A DNA stretch of 64,000 bases from Accumulibacter sp. GTDB taxonomy: Bacteria > Pseudomonadota > Gammaproteobacteria > Burkholderiales > Rhodocyclaceae. The notes beneath the pieces are model-generated. The model saw only the letters and a program-made list of their open reading frames with translations, did no database searches and was not told the DNA's origin. Positions within the stretch are counted from its first letter, which is position 1. Each line of letters opens with the position of its first letter. Where the stretch lies: contig JAFLDO010000008.1 in NCBI GenBank assembly GCA_017302455.1, forward strand, positions 1 to 64,000, read 5' to 3'. Positions 26,490-36,833 of this stretch are shown piece by piece. Made by a program: the position numbers and the translations under genes.

Positions 26490-29078
26490 ATGGCTTCGGT
26501 TGCCGTCGTTAGTGAACCACTGGTCGGCCGCTGCCGATCACGCCTGCGGGACGCCCAGAAGAGCATCCGCGAGCGCTTTCTGGCCGAGGGCGATGCACCG
26601 TGCCTGTTGCACGAACGCTGCCAACTGATCGACGCGGTCCTCGGCGACCTGTGGCGCGAACTGGACTTGCCGACGTCATTGGCGCTGGTCGCTGTCGGCG
26701 GTTATGGGCGCGGCGAACTCTATCCGGCATCGGACGTGGACCTGATGCTGCTGCTGCCCGGCCCGCCTGACGAGGCACTGACAGCGCAGCTCGAGGCGGT
26801 CGTCACCGTCTTCTACGACATCGGACTGGAGGTCGCGCCGAGCGTGCGCACGATCGACGAGTGTTCGCAGGCAGCAAGCGGTGATCTGACTGTTCAAACC
26901 GCGCTGCTCGAAGCCCGCCTGCTCGCTGGAAACGCCAGGCTGTTCGAGGATCTTTCGGCGGAACTGGCCCGAATCCTCGACCCGCACGCCTTCTTCGAAG
27001 CGAAGAAGAAAGAGCAGGAGGAGCGCTACCTGCGCTATTACGGCTCGCCGTACAGCCTGGAGCCCAATTGCAAGGAGGCTCCCGGCGGCCTGCGCGACCT
27101 GCAGACAATCCTCTGGATCGCCCGTGCAGCAGGCTATGGGGAAACCTGGCAAGCGCTGGCGCAGCACGGATTCATCACCCGGGAGGAGGAACAGCAACTC
27201 CAGCGCAGCGTGAGTTTCCTGCAGCAGTTGCGAACCCGCCTGCACATTCATGTCGGCAGGCGTGAGGATCGCCTCCTCTTTGACTACCAGAGTGCGCTTG
27301 CCGAGCAGTGGGGCTACAAGGCGACGGCAACCCGGCGGGCCAGCGAACTGTTGATGCAGCAGTATTACCGCACGGCCAAGGAAGTCACGCAGATCAACAC
27401 GATCCTGCTGCTGAACATCGGCGCCGCCATCTCGCCGCTGCCCGACCAGCCGCCGCAAGCCATCAATGAACACTTCCAGAATACGCACGACCTGCTGGAT
27501 GTCGTCGACGAAGGGGTTTTCGCGAGAGAGCCCGGGGTCATCCTGGAGGCTTTTCTCGTCATGCAACAGCATCCCGAGTTGCAGGGGATGACGGCACGCA
27601 CCCTGCGCGCGCTGTGGCACGCACGCACCCTGATCGATGATGGTTTCCGCCGTGACCCCGACAATCGTGCCCGCTTCCTGCAAATCCTCCAGCAACCGCG
27701 TGGCGTGCTGCATGAACTCCAGCGTATGAACCAGTTCGGCGTTCTTGGCCGCTATCTACCCAAGTTCGGCAAGATCGTCGGCCAGATGCAGCACGACCTG
27801 TTTCATGTCTATACGGTCGACCAGCATACTCTGCAGGTCCTGCGTAACCTGCGTCGTTTTCTCGCCGACGAGTTCACCCACGAGTACCCGCTGTGCAGCG
27901 AACTGATCAGAGACTTTCCCCGCGCCTGGGTCCTCTACGTCGCCGCCCTTTTCCACGACATTGCCAAGGGACGAGGCGGTGATCATTCGGAACTCGGTGC
28001 CATCGACGCCGCCGCGTTCTGTGCCGATCATGGCCTCGACGCGGAGGACAGCGAACTGGTCGTTTGGCTCGTCCAGCGGCATCTGCTGATGTCGATGGTC
28101 GCGCAGAAGCAGGACTTTGCCGACCCCGACGTCCTCGGTGGCTTTGCCACGATGGCCAAGGACGAGCGGCACCTGACCGCGCTCTATCTGTTCACGGTCG
28201 CCGACATTCGTGGCACCAGCCCGAAGGTCTGGAACACCTGGAAAGGACAGCTCCTCGAGCAGCTTTTCCGGAGCACGTGCCGAACATTGCTCGCCGGCGG
28301 TCACGTACCGGTGCGCCAGGGACTGATCGAGGAGCGGCAGCAGGAAGCGCTGCGCCTGCTGCGCTATTTCGCCCTCCCCGAGGCAGTGCATCAGCGCTTG
28401 TGGAAGCAACTCGATACCGTCTACTTCCTGCGCCATTCCGCGGAGGAAATCGCCTGGCATACGCGCGCGCTGCACTATCGGCCCGGCGTCGAGAAGCCGG
28501 TGGTCAAGGCGCGCGTCAACCCGCAGGGCGAAGGGCTCGAGGTGATGATCTACACCCGCGACCAGCGCGACCTGTTCGCACGCGTGGTGGGGTTTTTCGG
28601 TCGTGCCGGCTACACCATCGTCGATGCCAAGATCCACACCACGCGGCATGGCTACGCGCTGGACAGCTTCATGCTTCTCGACCTCAGCGACCGCGACAGT
28701 GACCGCGCCATGATCACCTACATCGAGCACGAGCTGAGCACCCGCCTCAGTCGCCAGAGCCCACCCGAGGCGCCGGCCAGCGGACGCATCTCGCGCCAGG
28801 TCAAGCACTTCCCGATTCAGCCCGTAGTCACCATCGAACCTGACGAGAAGGGCTCGCACTACGTGCTGTCGGTCAACGCTGCCGATCGCCCTGGTCTCCT
28901 CTACACGATCGCCATGACGCTGGCAGCGCACGGTGCCAATCTGCATACGGCCAAGATCTCGACGCTTGGCGAACGGGTCGAGGACACCTTCCTGATCAGC
29001 GGCGGCGACCTCGGTCAGGCCGCCAGCCGCATCAGACTGGAGACCGAACTGTTGGATCGCTTGAGCTTGAAGCTCTGA
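26490..29078 (+). CDS. glnD: Bifunctional uridylyltransferase / uridylyl-removing enzyme (PII regulator)
   Basis: An 862-residue nitrogen sensor that uridylylates PII proteins when glutamine is low and deuridylylates them when it is high. The nucleotidyltransferase motif [10 protein letters not shown]...SDVDLM is near residue 70. The HD hydrolase motif [18 protein letters not shown] is near 487. Two ACT glutamine-sensing domains occupy about 690-765 and 795-862 (VRVN-type [20 protein letters not shown] and [20 protein letters not shown]). Length matches the family. It forms a two-gene unit with map. Confidence 0.97.
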
Positions 29079-29598
29079 CGCTGTCGTCGCACGGTGCGCG
29101 GATCATGACCGGCCGCGCGTGGCGAGCGGCACCAGAGCGGGAGGCAGCGACGCCTCGAACCGACCGCAAGCTGGGTGTCGGCTTTTTTTACACCGAAGCA
29201 CCCGCCACGCCACCCTGAATCGGGGCGGCGCCGACAACTCATTGCTTTAGCGAGCTGTTTTGTTCTTCCATGTTTCTGGTATAGAATTTGCTATTAGAGT
29301 GGGAAAGCGTGATTTGGCGAACGGTTTATTGCTGGCAGTCGTTTCAGTTCTGCGATTGGAGCGTGACGTAGTCCGCATACGAGCCGCGATGTCGGCGCTA
29401 GGATACGTCGGTTGGGTCTGCGCTTGATCTTGCCGGCGATAATAGGAGCCTGCGAAGACAGCACTGAAACGAACCGGTTGGCACCTCGGATCAGCCCAGG
29501 CTGGCGAGAAGTGCGATGGTCGTTACCGAAAATTACAGGGCACGCACGTTGGTTTTGCAAAGCGAAAACCGGGGTCGAAACTTTTTGGGAGCAGTACG
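29079..29598. other. Intergenic region between glnD and the HprK-related cluster
   Basis: No gene is seen over 520 bases. The first 110 bases include a terminator-like hairpin. From 29240 to 29300 the sequence is markedly more AT-rich than the rest of the window and includes TATAGAAT at 29280-29287, a candidate -10. If that is the promoter, the exported-protein gene has a leader of about 310 bases. The compositional dip suggests a junction with acquired DNA. Confidence 0.5.
29160..29189 (+). terminator. Weak rho-independent terminator after glnD
   Basis: CCGAC (29160-29164) pairs with GTCGG (29177-29181), followed by C and seven T residues. The stem is only 5 bp with a 12-base loop, so its strength is doubtful. 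Its position about 80 bases after the glnD stop is right. Confidence 0.4.
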
Positions 29599-30102
29599 AT
29601 GAAGAGCACGGAATCAATTGACGAGACGGCGGCCTCGACCGGTCGATCGCTCGCCGACGGTGACGCCGTCAGCCCGAGCCAGACGTCGCTCATGGACCAG
29701 CGGCGTCGGCGCTTGGTTCGCGGCGCAATGGCCGTCGCGCCACTGGTGCTGACCTTGCGCAGCGGGGCGCTAGCGGCCGCCTCATGCACGGGGGTGAAAA
29801 TTGCCAGCGTGAGAGTATCAACCGGCGCGGGTTCCGAACGTAGAGGAGAAATCATGAACCCGCCGACGCCTCTGGCAAATAAGGATGTCTGCGTCGCACC
29901 GGGCGTGCTAGTACAGTGCCCGGCTCCCAGTGTGGAAAAGGTGTTGACTTCCTCGCCTATCAACGCGACGAACTCCGAGGAAATCCTTTTTCGGGACGTC
30001 GCCGGTACTGACTATTGGACGTGCGGAGACCGCCAATTCCAGGGTCAGAACGTAGCCATCCTGAGTTCGGCGTCCGTCGCCTCAATGGGTGTGGCTCCCT
30101 AA
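29599..30102 (+). CDS. Cys-containing exported protein of the HPr-kinase-related cluster
   Basis: A 167-residue protein without a recognised domain. Residues 34-62 look like a twin-arginine or Sec signal: QRRRRLVRGAMAVAPLVLTL, then SGALAAASC, preceded by a Ser/Thr-rich polar leader. The mature part has four Cys (63, 98, 107, 142), enough for two disulphides, and little predicted helix. A GGGAG lies upstream of the ATG. The next gene begins about 53 bases later on the same strand. Its constant neighbourhood with a PqqD-like protein and an HprK-like kinase would make it a candidate substrate or partner of that system, but this is inference from position only. Confidence 0.6.
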   Translation: MKSTESIDETAASTGRSLADGDAVSPSQTSLMDQRRRRLVRGAMAVAPLVLTLRSGALAAASCTGVKIASVRVSTGAGSERRGEIMNPPTPLANKDVCVAPGVLVQCPAPSVEKVLTSSPINATNSEEILFRDVAGTDYWTCGDRQFQGQNVAILSSASVASMGVAP

Positions 30103-30155
30103 CGGCAGCGGTGCCCCAAGCTGGCGCACGTTTGCTCTGAAGCGACTCACACTTG

Positions 30156-30476
30156 ATGAGCGACTCCGGTGAAGGGGCTGAAATCCTCATCTCGACCCCA
30201 GCCGCTGGCTCGCTTCGCTGGCAGCAGTGGGACGAGGTCTACCTCGTTTATCAAGCTTCATCGGCGGAAACGCACGTCTTCAACGATACCACCGCCCTCA
30301 TCCTGAGATGCCTCGAACACGGCCCGCAATCACTGACGGCTGTCAGGAGCTGGACCGAAACCGCGCTTGGCGTCGAGCAGGGGCAGTTGGCTACTGATCA
30401 CTTCGCCTTCGCCGTTGGGCGGCTCGAAGAACTGGGTCTCGTTGACTCCCTGGAACAAGCCCTGGCCACTCAATGA
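30156..30476 (+). CDS. HPr-rel-A system PqqD family protein
   Basis: About 106 residues. The pattern WQQWDEVYLVYQASSAETHV followed by FNDTTALILRCLEHGPQSL is that of PqqD-like peptide-chaperone (RRE-type winged-helix) proteins, which bind leader peptides of modified peptides. In the family defined alongside HprK-related kinase A the PqqD member is encoded directly before the kinase, as here. The stop overlaps the kinase start (ATGA). The peptide it might bind is unknown; the exported Cys protein just upstream is the nearest candidate. Confidence 0.75.
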   Translation: MSDSGEGAEILISTPAAGSLRWQQWDEVYLVYQASSAETHVFNDTTALILRCLEHGPQSLTAVRSWTETALGVEQGQLATDHFAFAVGRLEELGLVDSLEQALATQ

Positions 30477-31390
30477 TCGTCGGTGACCTGAGTCGCCGGG
30501 AACTCGGAAGTCGCCTGGCCGGTACTGGGCTAGGTCTTCGCTTTGGCCCGTTCAACCTGACGATTCGCTCCGACCTCACGTCGTTCGCCTCCCTCGCCCG
30601 TTCCCTTTACGCGCCCTACCCGCTGCCCGAAGCGGGGGAAATGACCGACTTCCACGTCGGGATAAGGCGCCCACGGGGAATGCGCCGCTGGCTTCGCCGC
30701 CAGGCCAGCTTCACGATTGACGGACAATCTCCCTTCGCACCCTATACCGTAGAGCATGCCTTCCCGGCCCTGGAGTGGGGAATCAACTGGTGCGTGGCGA
30801 CGCGTGCGCATCATCTGCTGATGCTCCATTCGGCGGGCGTGGAGCGCAATGGGCGAGCGATCCTCTTCCCCGCCTCGCCTGGCGATGGCAAATCGACCCT
30901 GTGTACCGCCTTGATCCACTCGGGCTGGCGCCTCATGTCCGATGAATTCGGCCTCGTGCGCCCGGAGGACGGGATGTTGCTGCCCCTGCCGCGGCTGATC
31001 CCGCTGAAGAACGAGTCGATCGACGTGATCAGACGGTTCAGGCCGGAAGCCATCATCGGCCCGGCCTTCCTCGAGACGCGCAAGGGCACGGTCGCGCATG
31101 TACGGCCACCGTTGGAGAGCATCCGCAGGATGCACGAACCGGCCCGACCACGCTGGTTCGTTTTCCCGCGCTGGATCGCCAATGCCCCGCTGACCTTGGA
31201 ACCGATGGCGAAAAGCCAGGCGTTCCTGATGGTCGCGACCAATGCGTTCAACTACGAGGTGCTCGATGAAACGGCCTTTCGGCTCGTCGCCGACCTGGTG
31301 GGCAGTTGCGATTGTTACTCGCTGAGCTATTCCGACCTCGACGAGGCGGTCGCCGCGCTCGACGAGCTTTCCCGCGCCACCGATGTCTGA
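30473..31390 (+). CDS. HprK-related kinase A
   Basis: A 305-residue protein related to the C-terminal kinase domain of HPr kinase/phosphorylase. The Walker A loop is FPASPGDGKSTLC at about residues 132-144. A following MSDEFGLVRPEDG segment resembles the HprK Asp-containing motif after the P-loop. The N-terminal 100 residues are specific to this subfamily. True HprK phosphorylates Ser46 of HPr in Firmicutes and some Proteobacteria; this subfamily occurs apart from HPr and its substrate is not known to me. It overlaps the PqqD gene by four bases and the nucleotidyltransferase by eight. Confidence 0.82.
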   Translation: MIVGDLSRRELGSRLAGTGLGLRFGPFNLTIRSDLTSFASLARSLYAPYPLPEAGEMTDFHVGIRRPRGMRRWLRRQASFTIDGQSPFAPYTVEHAFPALEWGINWCVATRAHHLLMLHSAGVERNGRAILFPASPGDGKSTLCTALIHSGWRLMSDEFGLVRPEDGMLLPLPRLIPLKNESIDVIRRFRPEAIIGPAFLETRKGTVAHVRPPLESIRRMHEPARPRWFVFPRWIANAPLTLEPMAKSQAFLMVATNAFNYEVLDETAFRLVADLVGSCDCYSLSYSDLDEAVAALDELSRATDV

Positions 31391-32528
31391 AGTTGTCGAC
31401 CCCACACGGCGCGCGCACAGGCTGCTGCTGGGAGCCCTGAAGGCGCCCGAACAGTTGCCCGCCCTGCCGCCGGCCGACTGGGAGCTGCTCCTGCGCGTCG
31501 CCCGGCGCGTCAGGTTGCTCGGCCGACTGGAGTCTGAGCTCTCCCGCTTGGGCCTGCTCGGCAGCATCCCGACGCGCGCCGCGGCGCATCTGCGGGCCGC
31601 CCGCAACGTCATCGAACATCGGAAGACGCTGGTGTCCTGGGAGGTGAACCGGATCCTCTGGGCGCTCAAGGGTATCGAGGTACCGCTGATCCTGCTCAAA
31701 GGCACAGGCTATCTCCTGGCAGGGCTGCCGCCGGCACGCGGACGCATCTTCGCCGATGTCGATCTGCTGGTGCCGGAGGAGCGGATCGGCGAGGTCGAGG
31801 AAAGGCTCGTCGAGCGCGGCTGGTTCAAGACTCAGATCGACCCCTACGACGACCGTTACTACCGTGTCTGGATGCACGAGATTCCGCCTCTCCGCCATCG
31901 CGAGCGCGGCACCGAGATCGACATCCACCATCGACTCCTGCCCAAGACCAGCCACCTCAGTTCCGATCCCGCACCGCTGTTCGCCGCCTCCCGGCCGCTC
32001 GCCGACCCGCGCCTGCGGGTTCTCGCGCCCGTCGACATGGTGCTCCACTCGCTGGTGCATTTGTTCCTTGAGGGCGATCCTGACGAAGGCCTGCGCCTGC
32101 GCGACCTCGTCGATGTCCATGACCTGCTCGGACACAACGGTCAACAACCCGGCTTCTGGACGGAACTGGCGCAACGCGCGCGCGCGCTGGGTTTCGCGCG
32201 GCCGCTTTTCTACGGGCTGCGCCACGCCCGGCGACTCCTGGGGACGCCAGTTCCCGCCGAGGTCCTGCAGCTACTCGAGGACGCGGGCCCCATCTGGCCG
32301 ATCCGCGTGCTCATGGATCAACTGATCCCGCTGGCGTTGCTGCCCGGGCACCCCGATCATCCCTCCCGACGCGCCGCCTGCAGCCGCTGGCTTCTCTACG
32401 TGCGTGCGCACTGGCTACGGATGCCGCCAGGCCTGTTGGCCCGCCACCTGTCGCACAAGGCATGGCTGCGCTTTCGCGGTGCCCGCAAACGCATCGATCT
32501 GGCCCAACTCGACCTCAAGCAGCAGTAG
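31383..32528 (+). CDS. Nucleotidyltransferase family protein (NTP_transf_5-like)
   Basis: A 381-residue protein. The central segment ILLKGTGYLLAGLPPARGR, then IFADVDLLVPEERI, is the acidic active site of the minimal-nucleotidyltransferase-like group PF14907 (a D-x-D in ADVDLL). A later TEIDIHHRL contributes a third acidic residue. Such proteins occur beside HprK-related kinase A and PqqD genes and beside some lasso-type and asparagine-rich peptide clusters. The nucleotide and acceptor are unknown. It starts eight bases inside the kinase gene and is the last gene of the cluster; the next gene is convergent. Confidence 0.75.
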   Translation: MSEVVDPTRRAHRLLLGALKAPEQLPALPPADWELLLRVARRVRLLGRLESELSRLGLLGSIPTRAAAHLRAARNVIEHRKTLVSWEVNRILWALKGIEVPLILLKGTGYLLAGLPPARGRIFADVDLLVPEERIGEVEERLVERGWFKTQIDPYDDRYYRVWMHEIPPLRHRERGTEIDIHHRLLPKTSHLSSDPAPLFAASRPLADPRLRVLAPVDMVLHSLVHLFLEGDPDEGLRLRDLVDVHDLLGHNGQQPGFWTELAQRARALGFARPLFYGLRHARRLLGTPVPAEVLQLLEDAGPIWPIRVLMDQLIPLALLPGHPDHPSRRAACSRWLLYVRAHWLRMPPGLLARHLSHKAWLRFRGARKRIDLAQLDLKQQ

Positions 32529-32624
32529 CCGAGAGGACCGCCCGGCAGCCGCGGGATACGTACCATACGTACCGGCCGGCATCGGCGAAGCATTTGCCAC
32601 CGGCTGCCAGACGCGAATCCCGGA

Positions 32625-34457
32625 CTATGGCCGACCTTTCGCGGCACTGGAGAGTGGCAAGGCCACGCGAAAACCGAGTAACTGGCTGCGATAGCTGGGC
32701 GAATTGCCGTTGCGGGTGGCTGCCCGCACCGAGGCCGGACCGCTCCAGCCGCCGCCGCGATAGACACGGCGTGCGCAATCGTCGTCGCTGCGTGCCGAGC
32801 CGTCGACCGGGGCGCCGATATAGTTGACCGTCAGGCAGTCCTCGACCCACTCCCAAACGTTCCCGAGCATGTCGTACAGGCCGAAAGCGTTGGGCTTGAA
32901 GCGGCCGACCGGTGCGGTCTCGACGTAGCCGTCGCGGCATTCATGAGCTTCCCACTCGAAACGGCGGGTTTGCTGGCTGTCGGCGTCGTGCACGTTGGCG
33001 TAGTCGCAGGCGAGACCGGGATCGTCGCCCCAGAAGCGTGAGGTCCGCGTGCCGGCGCGCGCGGCGTACTCCCACTCGGACTCGGAAAGCAGCCGGTAGG
33101 GCTTGCCGGTCTTCTTTGCCAGCCAGGCGACATAGGCCCTGGCGTCCAGCCAGCTCACGCAGACCGCCGGGTGCTCGTCGGTCTGCGCGAAGTCGGGGTC
33201 TCGCCAACTGCGGCCGGGCTGATTGACCCACTCCGGGCCGACCCAGATGTAGCACGAGCTTTCGCTCCGATGACCACTGTCCCTGACGAAGACCGCATAC
33301 TGTCCGCGCGTCACTTCATGACGGCCGACGGCAAGCGGGCGCGGGATCGTCACCAGGTGGCGCGGCCGCTCGGCGTCGCCGCTGCCGGTCTCGCGCATCG
33401 ACGCGCCCATCTGGAAGCCTCCTTCGGGAACCACGACCATCTCGGGGCATTCGGGACAATCGCGAAAGAGCTTGCTCGTACCGGCATCGCGATCCACTCC
33501 CATGTGCTCGGGCGACTTCGGCGCCACCAGGCGACGCAAGCGCGCGTCGGCGAGAGACGCGAACTGGCCGCGCGGGTATTTCTCCAGGTAGGCACGAAAG
33601 TCGTCCGGGTTGTCGCTGGCCCGGATGCTGTCCCAGAAACTCAACTCGAAACTCGCCACTTCGCCAAGCCCCGCAGCCGGAGGGCCGACTGCCGCCACGG
33701 CGCCCCCGGCGAAATAGAAATCGCCCTCGAGGCTGCCTTCCATCCAGGGCTCCTGCTGACCGCCGGAATCCCGCTTCACGCCTTTCACAAGGTGCTTCAG
33801 CGTCTGCTCGATCGGCTGGCTGGGAACCTCCATCTGGTTGAGCAGATGCTGCGTGTAGACGCCATGCTCGCCGTCGCCGTCGGCCGCGACGCTTCCGGGT
33901 CGGGTCGCGAACGAGATCAGCGTACCGGACGGCGCCTCGACGCGCGCCAGGCCGCCGGCCGCCGAACGAAAGCGGCGGGTAAAGGGGTTGTTGCGGCAGG
34001 CGTCGAGGAAGATCAGGTTGAGCCGGGTCTTGCTCTCTTCCATGATCTCGAGGACCTGACTGACGTTGAGGCTGTTCAGCGGCACGTCCTCCTCGCCGGC
34101 GATATCGGCATCGATCGTCGGCAGGTAGTTGATGCCTTTCAGTTGCATGCCGTGACCGGCGTAGAAGAAGAGCGCGACGCTCCCTGGCTGCAGGCGGCTG
34201 CGGAACTCGCGCAGCATCGGGGCGATCTGGCGCGTCCGCAGGTCTTCGCGGACGACCACCTCGAAGCCAAGCTTCTCCAGCTTGGCGGCGACGGCGCGCG
34301 CATCGTTGCCGGGATTGCGCAAAGGCGAAGCGCGATACGCCGAGTTGCCGACCACCAGGGCAATCCGCTTCTCGTCGGCGAGCAAGGGCCGGCCGACGAC
34401 CAGCAGCAGGCCGGCGATCAGCGCCACGACCAGACGCAAGACGGGGAGAGAGTTCAT
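32625..34457 (-). CDS. Caspase-like peptidase fused to a formylglycine-generating-enzyme-type domain
   Basis: A 610-residue exported protein. Residues 1-27 are a signal or anchor helix. Residues 30-245 are a C14 caspase-like domain with His102 in FFYAGHGMQ and Cys154 in FLDACRNNPF, both catalytic residues intact. Residues 255-315 form a linker with a DSIRASDNPDDFRAYLEKYP repeat of the type seen between such modules. Residues 340-605 form an FGE-sulfatase domain (SWLDARAYVAWLAKKTGKPY, LSESEWEYAARAGT, GNVWEWVEDC, GGGWSG) that may serve as a binding fold and not an oxidase. Fusions like this are common in Accumulibacter-type genomes. The target is unknown. Confidence 0.85.
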   Translation of the reverse strand: MNSLPVLRLVVALIAGLLLVVGRPLLADEKRIALVVGNSAYRASPLRNPGNDARAVAAKLEKLGFEVVVREDLRTRQIAPMLREFRSRLQPGSVALFFYAGHGMQLKGINYLPTIDADIAGEEDVPLNSLNVSQVLEIMEESKTRLNLIFLDACRNNPFTRRFRSAAGGLARVEAPSGTLISFATRPGSVAADGDGEHGVYTQHLLNQMEVPSQPIEQTLKHLVKGVKRDSGGQQEPWMEGSLEGDFYFAGGAVAAVGPPAAGLGEVASFELSFWDSIRASDNPDDFRAYLEKYPRGQFASLADARLRRLVAPKSPEHMGVDRDAGTSKLFRDCPECPEMVVVPEGGFQMGASMRETGSGDAERPRHLVTIPRPLAVGRHEVTRGQYAVFVRDSGHRSESSCYIWVGPEWVNQPGRSWRDPDFAQTDEHPAVCVSWLDARAYVAWLAKKTGKPYRLLSESEWEYAARAGTRTSRFWGDDPGLACDYANVHDADSQQTRRFEWEAHECRDGYVETAPVGRFKPNAFGLYDMLGNVWEWVEDCLTVNYIGAPVDGSARSDDDCARRVYRGGGWSGPASVRAATRNGNSPSYRSQLLGFRVALPLSSAAKGRP

Positions 34458-34520
34458 CAGGACGGATGTTATTATGAAATTCGCCCGGCGACATCACGCC
34501 GTGCATGCCGAATAGCCACC

Positions 34521-36833
34521 TTGCGTACTCCAGCCGATGCCGCCCCAGCCCACCAGGCGAACGTACCCTGGCGACGGCTGGCGTTCTTTGTTGTCGCCGC
34601 ACAGTGTCTGGCGCTGACGCTGCTCGGCTACATGCTGCTCAACAAGCACCGCAGTCTGCTCGACGAGCTGATGTTGTCGCGCATCGAGATCGAGGCCAGC
34701 GACCTCGAAACCGCCTTGCGCACCGGCGCGATGAGCGGACTGCAGCCGGGCGAGATGTTCCGGCTGGAAGCGATGGTCCAACACCTGAAGGCAGCCGACC
34801 CGGCAATCGCCGCCATCGCGGTGCTCAGCGTCGAGGCGCACACCGCCCGTATCGTCTTCGCCGACGACCCCGGGCAGCTCGGCAAGACGCTGCCCGCCGA
34901 CGAGTGGCAATCCACCTCGGCACATGGTTTCACGCGCCACGACGCCGATGCCGGGCCGCAGATCGAGGTCGCCGTTCGCGATGCCGCCGGAGTTGTCATC
35001 GGCGGCCTGCGCGTGCGCGCCGCCGGCGCGCCGCTGGCCGCCGCCAGCCAGGCCATGGCCAACAGCCTCTGGTACACGATCGCCGCTGCCGTCGGCGCGC
35101 TGACCGTGCTCACACTGGCTGCCCTGGCGCGGCTGCGCGCCGCCGGTAGCGGCGCTGCCCTGCACCGCCGCATCGTCGTGCTGGCGCTGAGCAGCACGCT
35201 TGCCGCCAGCGCCTTCGTCGCCTGGCAGGCCGATCGGCTGTTTGGCGAGCAACTGAAGCCGGCGGTGACGGCCAAGGTGCAGGGCATCGCCAATCTGCTG
35301 GCGAACAAGCTGGAATACGCGGCGGCCCTGGAGATTCCGCTCGACAAGCTGCCAGGGGTCACCGACTACTTCGCTGGCATCATTGCCCGCCACCCGGAGG
35401 TCGCCGCGTTGCGCCTGAGCGACGCGACCGGCGGCGTCCTCGCCGAACACGGCGCTGCCCGCGGCCGCTGGATCACGCGCGCCGTCGGCAACGCCCAAGT
35501 CGCCGCCGCCACCGACGAGCGCTTCGTGGCGCGCCGACTGGGTGAACTGGCCGCCGATGTCGGCATCGTTCTCCTCGTCTCGGGCCTGATCTTCCGCGAA
35601 CTGCTGGCGGCACTGCTCCATCGCCTGCCGCGCAGCGGCGGCGTGCCGACGCTGAGTGCCCTGCAGTCCCTGCGCCTGCCGCTCTTCCTCTTCATCCTCA
35701 GCGAGGAGATGTCGCGCTCCTTTCTGCCGCTTTACCTGCAGTCATTCACCAGTGGCAGCAGCTTCCTCGGCCAGGAGGCGGAGGTCGGCCTGCCGATAAC
35801 CGCCTACATGCTCTGCTTTGCCCTGGCGACGCCCTTCGCCGGCCGCTGGACCGACCGCTGGGGCATTGCCAGAGTGTTCGCGGCCGGCGTCGGCCTGGCC
35901 CTCGCCGGCTTCGCCTGGACGGCTCTCGCTACCGCCTACTGGCAGTTGCTGCCCGCCCGCGCCCTCTGCGCCTGCGGCTACGCCGCCTGCACCATAGCGT
36001 GTCAGCGCCAGTTGATCGCGCTTACCGGACCCGCCGAGAGGGCGCGCGGCCTGGCCTTGTTCGTCGGCGCAGTCGGCATCGCCGCGATCTGCGGATCGGC
36101 ACTTGGCGGTGTTCTCGCGGAGCAGTTCGGATTTCGCCTGGTGTTTGCCCTCTCCGCCTTGCTGACGCTGCTCGCACTCGCCGCCTTCCACTCCGCCCGG
36201 GTGCCGACGATGGCACCAGGCGACGCCGGGCCGCTGCTCGGCCTGGCGGAGGTCCGCAGGCTCTTCGCGGACCGTCGCTTCACCTTCCTGATGCTCGGCG
36301 GTGCGGTTCCCGCCAAGATCGCCCTCGCCGGCTACCTGTTCTATTTGACGCCGCTCGCGCTGCACCAACTCGCTTACAGCCCGGCGGCGATCGGCCGGGC
36401 CGTGATGCTCTATTTCGTTCTCGTCGCGGCGGTCAATCCGCTTGCCTCCTGGTTGGCGGATCACTTCGGCTGGCGCCTGGCGCTGACCGTGGGCGGCGGC
36501 CTTCTGATCGGCCTCGGCGGGCTGGCGGGGGTCGCCGGCTGGCTCCCTGGCGAGGCCGCCGTGTGGACCGGAATCGCCGCCCTGGGTATCGGTACCGGGT
36601 TGGCCGCCGCGCCGATGCAGGCACTGGCCAGCGAGATCGGGGCGCGGGCCGGCGCCACCTCGGTCGCTGTCGTACTGCGTACGGTGGAACGTCTGGGCAG
36701 CGTCATCGGCCCCTTGTGGGCTGGCGCCTGGCTCATCTCAGGGGATTGGCGCGGTGCGATGGCGGCAATCGGCGTTGCCGTCCTGGCCGGCACCCTGCTC
36801 TGCCTCGGCGTGCGCGAAGAGGGAGCCCGATGA
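34521..36833 (+). CDS. MFS transporter with N-terminal periplasmic sensor region
   Basis: About 770 residues from a TTG at 34521; no ATG or GTG fits before the first membrane helix, so this start is uncertain. A helix at about 18-40 precedes an extracytoplasmic region (40-180). Two more helices (about 180-240) precede a second periplasmic stretch resembling a sensor (PAVTAKVQGIANLLANKLEY...GVTDYFAGIIARHPEVAAL). A fourth helix sits near 345-370. A 12-helix MFS permease follows from about 380 to the end (PFAGRWTDRWGIARVF). A transporter fused to receptor-like dCACHE/CHASE-type segments is unusual. The stop overlaps the next ATG (ATGA), making an operon with a solute-binding protein. Confidence 0.75.
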   Translation: MRTPADAAPAHQANVPWRRLAFFVVAAQCLALTLLGYMLLNKHRSLLDELMLSRIEIEASDLETALRTGAMSGLQPGEMFRLEAMVQHLKAADPAIAAIAVLSVEAHTARIVFADDPGQLGKTLPADEWQSTSAHGFTRHDADAGPQIEVAVRDAAGVVIGGLRVRAAGAPLAAASQAMANSLWYTIAAAVGALTVLTLAALARLRAAGSGAALHRRIVVLALSSTLAASAFVAWQADRLFGEQLKPAVTAKVQGIANLLANKLEYAAALEIPLDKLPGVTDYFAGIIARHPEVAALRLSDATGGVLAEHGAARGRWITRAVGNAQVAAATDERFVARRLGELAADVGIVLLVSGLIFRELLAALLHRLPRSGGVPTLSALQSLRLPLFLFILSEEMSRSFLPLYLQSFTSGSSFLGQEAEVGLPITAYMLCFALATPFAGRWTDRWGIARVFAAGVGLALAGFAWTALATAYWQLLPARALCACGYAACTIACQRQLIALTGPAERARGLALFVGAVGIAAICGSALGGVLAEQFGFRLVFALSALLTLLALAAFHSARVPTMAPGDAGPLLGLAEVRRLFADRRFTFLMLGGAVPAKIALAGYLFYLTPLALHQLAYSPAAIGRAVMLYFVLVAAVNPLASWLADHFGWRLALTVGGGLLIGLGGLAGVAGWLPGEAAVWTGIAALGIGTGLAAAPMQALASEIGARAGATSVAVVLRTVERLGSVIGPLWAGAWLISGDWRGAMAAIGVAVLAGTLLCLGVREEGAR

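Follow-up and report, generated by a model that had tools for sequence, protein, structure and literature searches.

A twin-arginine leader protein accompanies an HprK-related kinase in an exchangeable four-gene cassette of Accumulibacter: a candidate leader-guided modification system

Gene sets combining an HprK-like kinase, a recognition element (RRE) for ribosomally synthesized and posttranslationally modified peptides (RiPPs), and a nucleoside triphosphate (NTP)-transferase have been described for peptides of Bacillota, here followed in excerpts of two reports (PMC9266682, PMC13381572). Among the Bacillota RiPPs, those named LPP combine an HprK-like kinase, a discrete RRE, and an NTP-transferase with precursors of 35 to 200 amino acids that have a conserved N terminus and a variable C terminus; their clusters first came to attention within polysaccharide loci, and they have a YxxPxVLxHQxIxFETxxS leader, a signal peptidase I (SpI)-like peptidase, and an MsbA-like exporter (PMC13381572). 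In the same excerpts, LppK phosphorylates a serine near the N terminus of the core, PadeK and PsmK phosphorylate the C-terminal serine of paeninodin and pseudomycoidin, and PsmN, annotated as a nucleotidyltransferase, is credited with placing hexoses on the phosphoserine, its gene being needed (PMC9266682, PMC13381572). In NCBIfam, the pair TIGR04352 and TIGR04353 is named the HPr-rel-A system, consisting of HprK-related kinase A and a PqqD family peptide chaperone, and we found no paper on the substrate of this system in the open-licence PMC literature. Here we describe a four-gene cassette with such a pair in a 64,000-nucleotide stretch from Accumulibacter sp. (GenBank assembly GCA_017302455.1, contig JAFLDO010000008.1, positions 1 to 64,000, forward strand), referred to as the window. 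The cassette genes, called by simple open reading frame (ORF) rules, form a real unit:

29599..30102, plus strand: exported partner protein of 167 amino acids, with a twin-arginine leader to about residue 61 and a hypervariable mature part with four cysteines
30153..30476, plus strand: PqqD-like protein, presumed to bind the leader (TIGR04353); an alternative ATG start at 30156 is possible
30473..31390, plus strand: HprK-related kinase A (TIGR04352)
31383..32528, plus strand: nucleotidyltransferase (PF14907)

An earlier, sequence-only reading had named these four consecutive plus-strand genes, and its description of them is borne out. As it had noted, overlaps join the last three; the PqqD-like and kinase genes share 4 bases (30473 to 30476), and the kinase and nucleotidyltransferase genes share 8 (31383 to 31390). 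The PqqD-like and HprK-like assignments are confirmed by 69.3 bits for TIGR04353 (NCBIfam cutoff, 35) and 427.9 bits for TIGR04352 (cutoff, 200), and the fourth protein, which had been called nucleotidyltransferase-like, scores 193.1 bits with PF14907 (Pfam gathering cutoff, 31.2). The first protein, described as exported with an Arg-rich signal and four cysteines, has RRRR at residues 35 to 38 followed by a hydrophobic stretch, contains exactly four cysteines (residues 63, 98, 107, and 142), and has no family match in Pfam or NCBIfam. Since the PqqD-like and kinase genes are adjacent and both score above the NCBIfam cutoffs, the window pair is an HPr-rel-A system. The HPr kinase/phosphatase model TIGR00679 matched the kinase weakly (10.7 bits, E value of 0.22; equivalog cutoff, 240). 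A sequence search of the PDB with the nucleotidyltransferase gave no match (E values up to 1), and the four matches obtained with the kinase (best E value, 0.093) were regarded as chance. The 11 nearest named kinases are 74 to 84% identical to the window kinase, and eight of them are in records named Accumulibacter, which places the genome in Candidatus Accumulibacter or close to it. The names of the two HPr-rel-A models state no substrate, product, or regulation, and the leader-bearing partner, the promoter, the exosortase link, and the cassette exchange reported below are new in this work for that system. The sequence-only reading had called the system undescribed; this applies to its substrate and product, as far as the open-licence PMC literature goes, but not to the kinase/PqqD pair, which NCBIfam names, nor to the gene set as such, to which the Bacillota sets are similar.

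The partner is an almost constant companion of the kinase. Three genome sets were used (369 genomes from the class, 61 relatives, and 14 controls, the window's own genome being in both of the first two), and kinases above the TIGR04352 cutoff were present in 41, 35, and 0 of these genomes, respectively. Neighborhoods were taken for every such kinase, giving 74 different loci, including the window; matches below the cutoff were not counted as kinase loci, and five of these (L152 to L156, with scores under 100) were left out. Several genomes thus encode more distant HprK-like proteins, these five and other matches below the cutoff, and some of the frames exceed the family model in length. A PqqD-like ORF was found with a home-made profile at all 74 loci, and the nucleotidyltransferase gene was found at 73, the exception (L144) being at a contig end. 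A pattern scan placed an exported twin-arginine ORF close upstream of the kinase at 69 of the 74 loci, and four more were recognized by reading (L112, L136, L140, and L141), with the partner of L112 lying after the nucleotidyltransferase gene and before the PqqD gene. With L143 excluded, where the contig begins 567 bases upstream, a partner with the conserved twin-arginine leader is present at all 73 assessable loci. The loose scan could take up chance ORFs and was checked by reading and with a leader profile, applied to 29 named loci among which Phycisphaerae, Sphingomonas, Neptunomonas, and Dechloromonas are also represented. This profile, built from the 73 leaders, gave its top match at the expected place in 28 of the named loci, at least 10 of which are contigs already among the 73, and gave none in L184; four matches were weak (E values of 0.0013 to 0.04), and in L174 an unrelated ORF matched at 0.039.

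The sequence-only reading had proposed the Arg-signal protein as the substrate of the system. The presence of a same-leader partner at 73 of 73 loci lends this strong co-occurrence support, but the 167-residue sequence is not the invariant, and taken literally, the link through that protein fails: its family (E value below 1e-10) occurs in only 12 of the 35 kinase-positive relatives, its own genome included. In the remaining 23, the same leader is joined to a different mature part, so it is the leader that is invariant. Three genomes (G379, G380, and G385) have weak matches to the 167-residue protein (E values of 0.005 to 0.009) away from the kinase. The 73 partners were grouped by their mature parts into class 1 (n = 37), class 2 (n = 12, the window type), class 3 (n = 14), and class 4 (n = 10, mixed). 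On a tree of the 73 kinases, these four classes need three changes, the minimum, and one branch with support of 100/99 parts class 1 from classes 2 to 4. This match shows linked inheritance and is not proof of specificity.

A profile of the class 1 mature part matched in 34 of the 369 class genomes, of which 30 are kinase positive and 4 are kinase negative (G080, G084, G099, and G215), and among the matches listed, most are located at the kinase locus. In the four kinase-negative genomes, the profile matched only from position 15 to 20 on. The matches in G080, G099, and G215 are GYWK-type modules in larger exported proteins in which a twin-arginine leader was not seen, the G215 protein being truncated where its contig ends and the G080 frame being covered for its last 330 residues only. 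In G015, the sole match sits away from the kinase, and G296 has a match at the kinase and another from profile position 1, on a different contig, in a 401-residue frame. A C-terminal module of the GYWK...H..AA.LNA type, shared with class 1 partners, also ends longer exported proteins (L202/G015, L206/G099, L209/G215, and L210/G080), none of which was seen to have a twin-arginine leader.

All 73 partners share a single part, a leader with the pattern [STQ]RR[RK][LF][LV][KR]GA..AP..LTL.S...A. Its first Arg is present in 72 of the 73 leaders and its second in all 73, counts that are partly built in, the partners having been found by this trait; a Pro at a fixed place occurs in 63, and a Leu or Phe at the place expected for twin-arginine translocation (Tat) occurs in 68. 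By motif, the window protein has the traits of a Tat substrate, a twin-arginine followed by a hydrophobic stretch, and TatC is present in its genome. Two features of the window partner are relevant here:

29701..29781, plus strand: conserved leader RRRRLVRGAMAVAPLVLTLRSGALAAA; median identity in 12 partners, 85% for the leader versus 20% for the core
30082..30084, plus strand: Ser162, the candidate phosphoacceptor, invariant in 12 partners

In class 2, the only class for which region identities were computed (12 partners), median identity is 85% for the leader, 74% for the kinase, 76% for the nucleotidyltransferase, 79% for GlnD, 51% for PqqD, and 20% for the partner core; the exported part changes very fast. 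All four cysteines, a C-terminal AILS, and Ser162 are nevertheless invariant in the 12 aligned class 2 partners, including that of the window. Its C-terminal motif is AILSSASVASM and the protein ends in VASMGVAP, so that the serine is not the last residue. Across classes 2 to 4, a motif of the form small-x-x-Ser-hydrophobic is found at the C terminus (ASVASM, SCWNSI, ACLTSI, and SCNASL), the corresponding pattern being present in 31 of 36 partners versus 1.0 expected by shuffling (class 4, 10/10, with 0.42 by shuffling; class 2, 10/12; class 3, 11/14). Class 1 partners typically have C-x-x-S-G-x-x-S-G-N-x-S, followed by C.G.[ST]PG[YF]W and H..AA.LNA (12 of the 37 aligned). In nearly all partners, the part behind the leader has about 70 to 240 residues, some of which (internal C, H, N, and PG) are conserved in class 1. 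Two partners are minimal, with inferred cleavage sites: that of L136, the smallest of the 73, consists of the leader and GSACISCNASLI only, and that of L169, on a Phycisphaerae contig that cuts the N terminus, consists of the leader and DGSGSGGSGNMSSPP. These two suggest that the leader and the serine motif are the essential parts and that the larger mature domains are cargo. The L136 partner gene, at about -609 to -378 relative to its kinase, is preceded by a PrsR/sigma-54-like promoter pair with three mismatches in all.

The catalytic residues of both enzymes are conserved. As the sequence-only reading had noted, the P-loop of the window kinase is intact (PGDGKST); G137, G139, K140, and T142 are kept in all 73 kinases, in which H119, D157, and E158 are likewise invariant, and K179, K204, and N260 are also conserved. 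In the nucleotidyltransferase, D125, D127, D180, H182, and H183 are invariant in 72 of 72 sequences, and from general knowledge of the fold, we take the three aspartates to be its active site. A His-Lys-Asp-Asp motif is common to the lasso kinases (PMC9266682); by our reading, it corresponds to H119/K140/D157/E158 of the kinase described here.

The cassette is preceded by what is predicted to be a promoter of the class known from PEP-CTERM genes, which are associated with exopolysaccharide. According to the excerpted text of Haft 2006 (PMC1569441), proteobacterial PEP-CTERM genes have a 17-nucleotide (nt) motif 1 ending in TTTACA and assigned to PrsR, a spacer of 32 to 92 nt, and a sigma-54 motif. 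We matched both parts to this published wording, not to the logo. In the window, motif 1 reads TGTCGGCTTTTTTTACA and is followed after 84 nt by motif 2:

29176..29192, plus strand: motif 1, TGTCGNNNNNTTTTACA, a predicted PrsR site as in PEP-CTERM promoters
29277..29291, plus strand: motif 2, TGGTATAGAATTTGC, predicted sigma-54 promoter, -24(GG)/-12(GC), overlapping an AT-rich patch

The genome has eight exact motif 1 sites versus none for the reversed control, three of the eight preceding ORFs that by reading have PEP-CTERM tails, and it encodes two copies of PrsR over the cutoff. When up to two mismatches in each part and a spacer of 28 to 99 nt were allowed, the pair was found upstream of 57 of 73 cassettes (class 1, 29/37; class 2, 11/12; class 3, 13/14), where base shuffles led us to expect 0.05 and the reversed sequence gave none. 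A sigma-70 scan found nothing. The sequence-only reading had taken an AT-rich 60-base patch upstream for a sign of acquired DNA. The patch, which we take to be that at 29280 to 29339, exists (41.7% GC, versus 50 to 78% in other 60-base blocks of 28800 to 33000); because it overlaps the predicted promoter, it is better explained by the sigma-54 element, and we dropped it as evidence of foreign DNA, of which such a promoter is not by itself a sign. An exosortase (PF09721) is encoded in 38 of the 41 kinase-positive genomes versus 79 of the 328 others (Fisher P value of 4e-18, not corrected for kinship). Among the matches listed for 20 of the 41 kinase-positive genomes, hand-picked for comparison, the kinase and an exosortase lie within 60 kb in 10, within 110 kb in 2, farther apart in 3, and on different contigs in 5. 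In the window genome, the exosortase matches listed are on other contigs (C35 and C65), and the cassette lies beside glnD.

This gene marks the site at which the cassette is exchanged:

26490..29078, plus strand: glnD, the constant 5' neighbor of the Accumulibacter cassette site, outside the system itself

Of 28 genomes in the genus, all but G390 have the kinase above the cutoff, and at all 27 loci, glnD is directly upstream of a cassette, 12 of them class 2, 14 class 3, and 1 class 1. On the glnD tree, the partner classes need seven changes, where two would suffice, and well-supported branches force five changes for class 3 and six for class 2; the window glnD groups with those of G372 (class 1 cassette) and G376 (class 2). 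As glnD itself may have recombined, the number of exchange events is approximate. Independent of this tree is a comparison of the flanks in G377 (class 2) and G380 (class 3), whose GlnD proteins are 98% identical and whose flanking DNA is 93% (5') and 91% (3') identical, whereas blastn finds no similarity across the cassette and the proteins share, over aligned residues, only 37% (kinase), 40% (nucleotidyltransferase), and 24% (PqqD) identity. Three deeply diverged cassette versions thus alternate between similar flanks, and the whole cassette is swapped among close relatives, a conclusion that rests on evidence other than the AT-rich patch. On its 3' side, the window cassette is adjoined by a minus-strand gene (32625 to 34457) for a protein with caspase (Peptidase_C14) and formylglycine-generating-enzyme-like (FGE-sulfatase) domains by Pfam. 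A tblastn search (E value of 1e-20) of the stretches taken around the other 26 Accumulibacter cassettes found no relative, so that the window cassette seems to differ from them in its 3' flank. A long plus-strand ORF with an MFS domain by Pfam (33171 to 36833) overlaps the antisense caspase gene in its first part; judged by eye, it probably begins in truth near 34.5 kb.

Our best reading is that the system is akin to the HprK-like RiPP kinases of LPP and paeninodin, in a new setting. With LPP, the cassette shares the set of kinase, PqqD/RRE-type protein, and nucleotidyltransferase, a conserved leader with a variable remainder, a polysaccharide setting, and a serine near the N terminus of the core; it differs in having a twin-arginine leader, larger Cys-bearing mature domains, and a proteobacterial PrsR/sigma-54-type promoter. 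The LPP leader motif is absent from the window protein and not visible in column counts of the 73 leaders. Among window ORFs of at least 60 amino acids at 24 to 38 kb and at least 200 amino acids at 38 to 46 kb, no SpI-like peptidase or MsbA-like exporter was recognized, nor was a lasso macrolactam synthetase (C) or B2 protease, the Pfam scan covering the main ORFs up to 38.7 kb and small ORFs lying outside it. Paeninodin and pseudomycoidin offer an HprK-like kinase acting on a C-terminal serine of the precursor, a nucleotidyltransferase gene, and the His-Lys-Asp-Asp motif, whereas here the substrate protein would have about 100 amino acids and the serine is near, not at, the C terminus. The two-part promoter is as in the excerpted description of PEP-CTERM/exosortase (EpsH) systems under PrsK/PrsR/sigma-54 control (PMC1569441), which occur in the same genomes; the window partner differs in lacking the PEP-CTERM features of a C-terminal Pro-Glu-Pro, a transmembrane segment, and a basic tail and in having a twin-arginine leader.

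From the LPP, paeninodin/pseudomycoidin, and PsmN precedents and the similarly placed conserved serines, we infer leader-guided serine phosphorylation before Tat export, and it is probable, if far from certain, that the cassette carries out leader-guided modification of a Tat-exported protein by such phosphorylation, perhaps by phosphoglycosylation. Under PrsR/sigma-54 control, the partner, PqqD-like protein, kinase, and nucleotidyltransferase would be made together. In the cytoplasm, the PqqD-like protein would hold the twin-arginine leader, acting in effect as a Tat proofreading chaperone, and present the partner to the kinase for phosphorylation of a serine. The target serine would belong to a short conserved motif, which in classes 2 to 4 lies close to the C terminus (Ser162 in the window) and in class 1 probably follows directly on the leader (C-x-x-S-G-x-x-S-G-N-x-S). 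A sugar or nucleotide might then be added to that phosphate by the PF14907 enzyme, and the folded, modified partner would be exported by Tat, lose its leader, and act outside the cell, presumably in the exopolysaccharide matrix.

Several observations weigh against this proposal. No serine column is common to all partner classes. Both serine patterns, like the motif patterns generally, were chosen after inspection of the data, and even so, that of class 1 matches 26 of its 37 partners, while the C-terminal one is missing from two of the 12 class 2 partners and three of the 14 in class 3 and occurs in class 1 once in 37 (0.84 expected); in the named partners of L168, L170, L172, L173, and L179, neither motif is clear. 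The general Tat model TIGR01409 gave no match to the window protein and only 12.4 bits, under the cutoff of 16.7, for one class 1 partner, and the hydrophobic stretch of the leader must serve PqqD binding and membrane insertion alike. The Sphingopyxis locus L184 has a kinase and no partner in the 8.8 kb covered, the promoter pair is found in only 4 of 10 class 4 cassettes, and co-inheritance in an operon alone could yield the agreement with the kinase tree in the absence of specificity.

Other explanations have to be set beside leader-guided phosphorylation. The kinase could be regulatory, phosphorylating HPr or another protein of the phosphotransferase system (PTS) and coupling the carbon or nitrogen state to exopolysaccharide synthesis, with the exported protein merely coregulated. 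Its distant relationship to HprK (TIGR00679 E value of 0.22) and the neighboring glnD, in the window and at all 27 loci of the genus, speak for such a role, which we nevertheless regard as very unlikely: within the genus, glnD is a fixed site exchanging cassettes of different descent, a partner is present at every assessable locus, and the constant neighbors are PqqD and the nucleotidyltransferase, for which we know of no role in HPr regulation. It also seems highly improbable to us that the partner is an ordinary, coregulated Tat-exported matrix protein while the three enzymes act on another substrate, such as an exopolysaccharide precursor. The exosortase/exopolysaccharide association and the resemblance of the promoter motifs to those of PEP-CTERM genes would fit, but a PqqD-type protein is encoded at every locus, the leader stays while the mature domains vary by class, and the leader, judged without a comparison set of Tat signals, seems more constrained than an ordinary one (Pro in 63/73).

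A further alternative is a RiPP pathway in which the mature part is cut further, the large domains are carriers, and the product is a short phosphorylated peptide. It would account for the minimal partners of L136 and L169, for a conserved leader with a variable core as in LPP precursors, and for a serine motif at the edge of the core. We consider it unlikely, given the length of the part behind the leader in nearly all partners, the conserved internal residues of class 1, and the lack of a constant peptidase gene. An exported, by eye S1C/DegP-like protease gene is found in 17 of the 74 fetched stretches, in several cases no more than about 2 kb from the kinase (for example, at -1889 to -1100 from that of L142), and could encode an accessory processing enzyme.

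A tentative further idea, which we hold to be possible rather than likely, is that the cassette makes a hypervariable, Tat-exported phospho- or phosphoglycoprotein that serves in the exopolysaccharide matrix as a strain-specific determinant of surface or floc identity, or as one selected by phages or predators. Enzymes and substrate would then be exchanged among close relatives as one allelic block, as capsule alleles are, and the modification may link the protein to polysaccharide. With the leader-bearing partner, an unexplained enzyme family gains a testable substrate, and in Accumulibacter, a wastewater genus, this is a locus at which a whole modification system and its presumed substrate swap as one allele.

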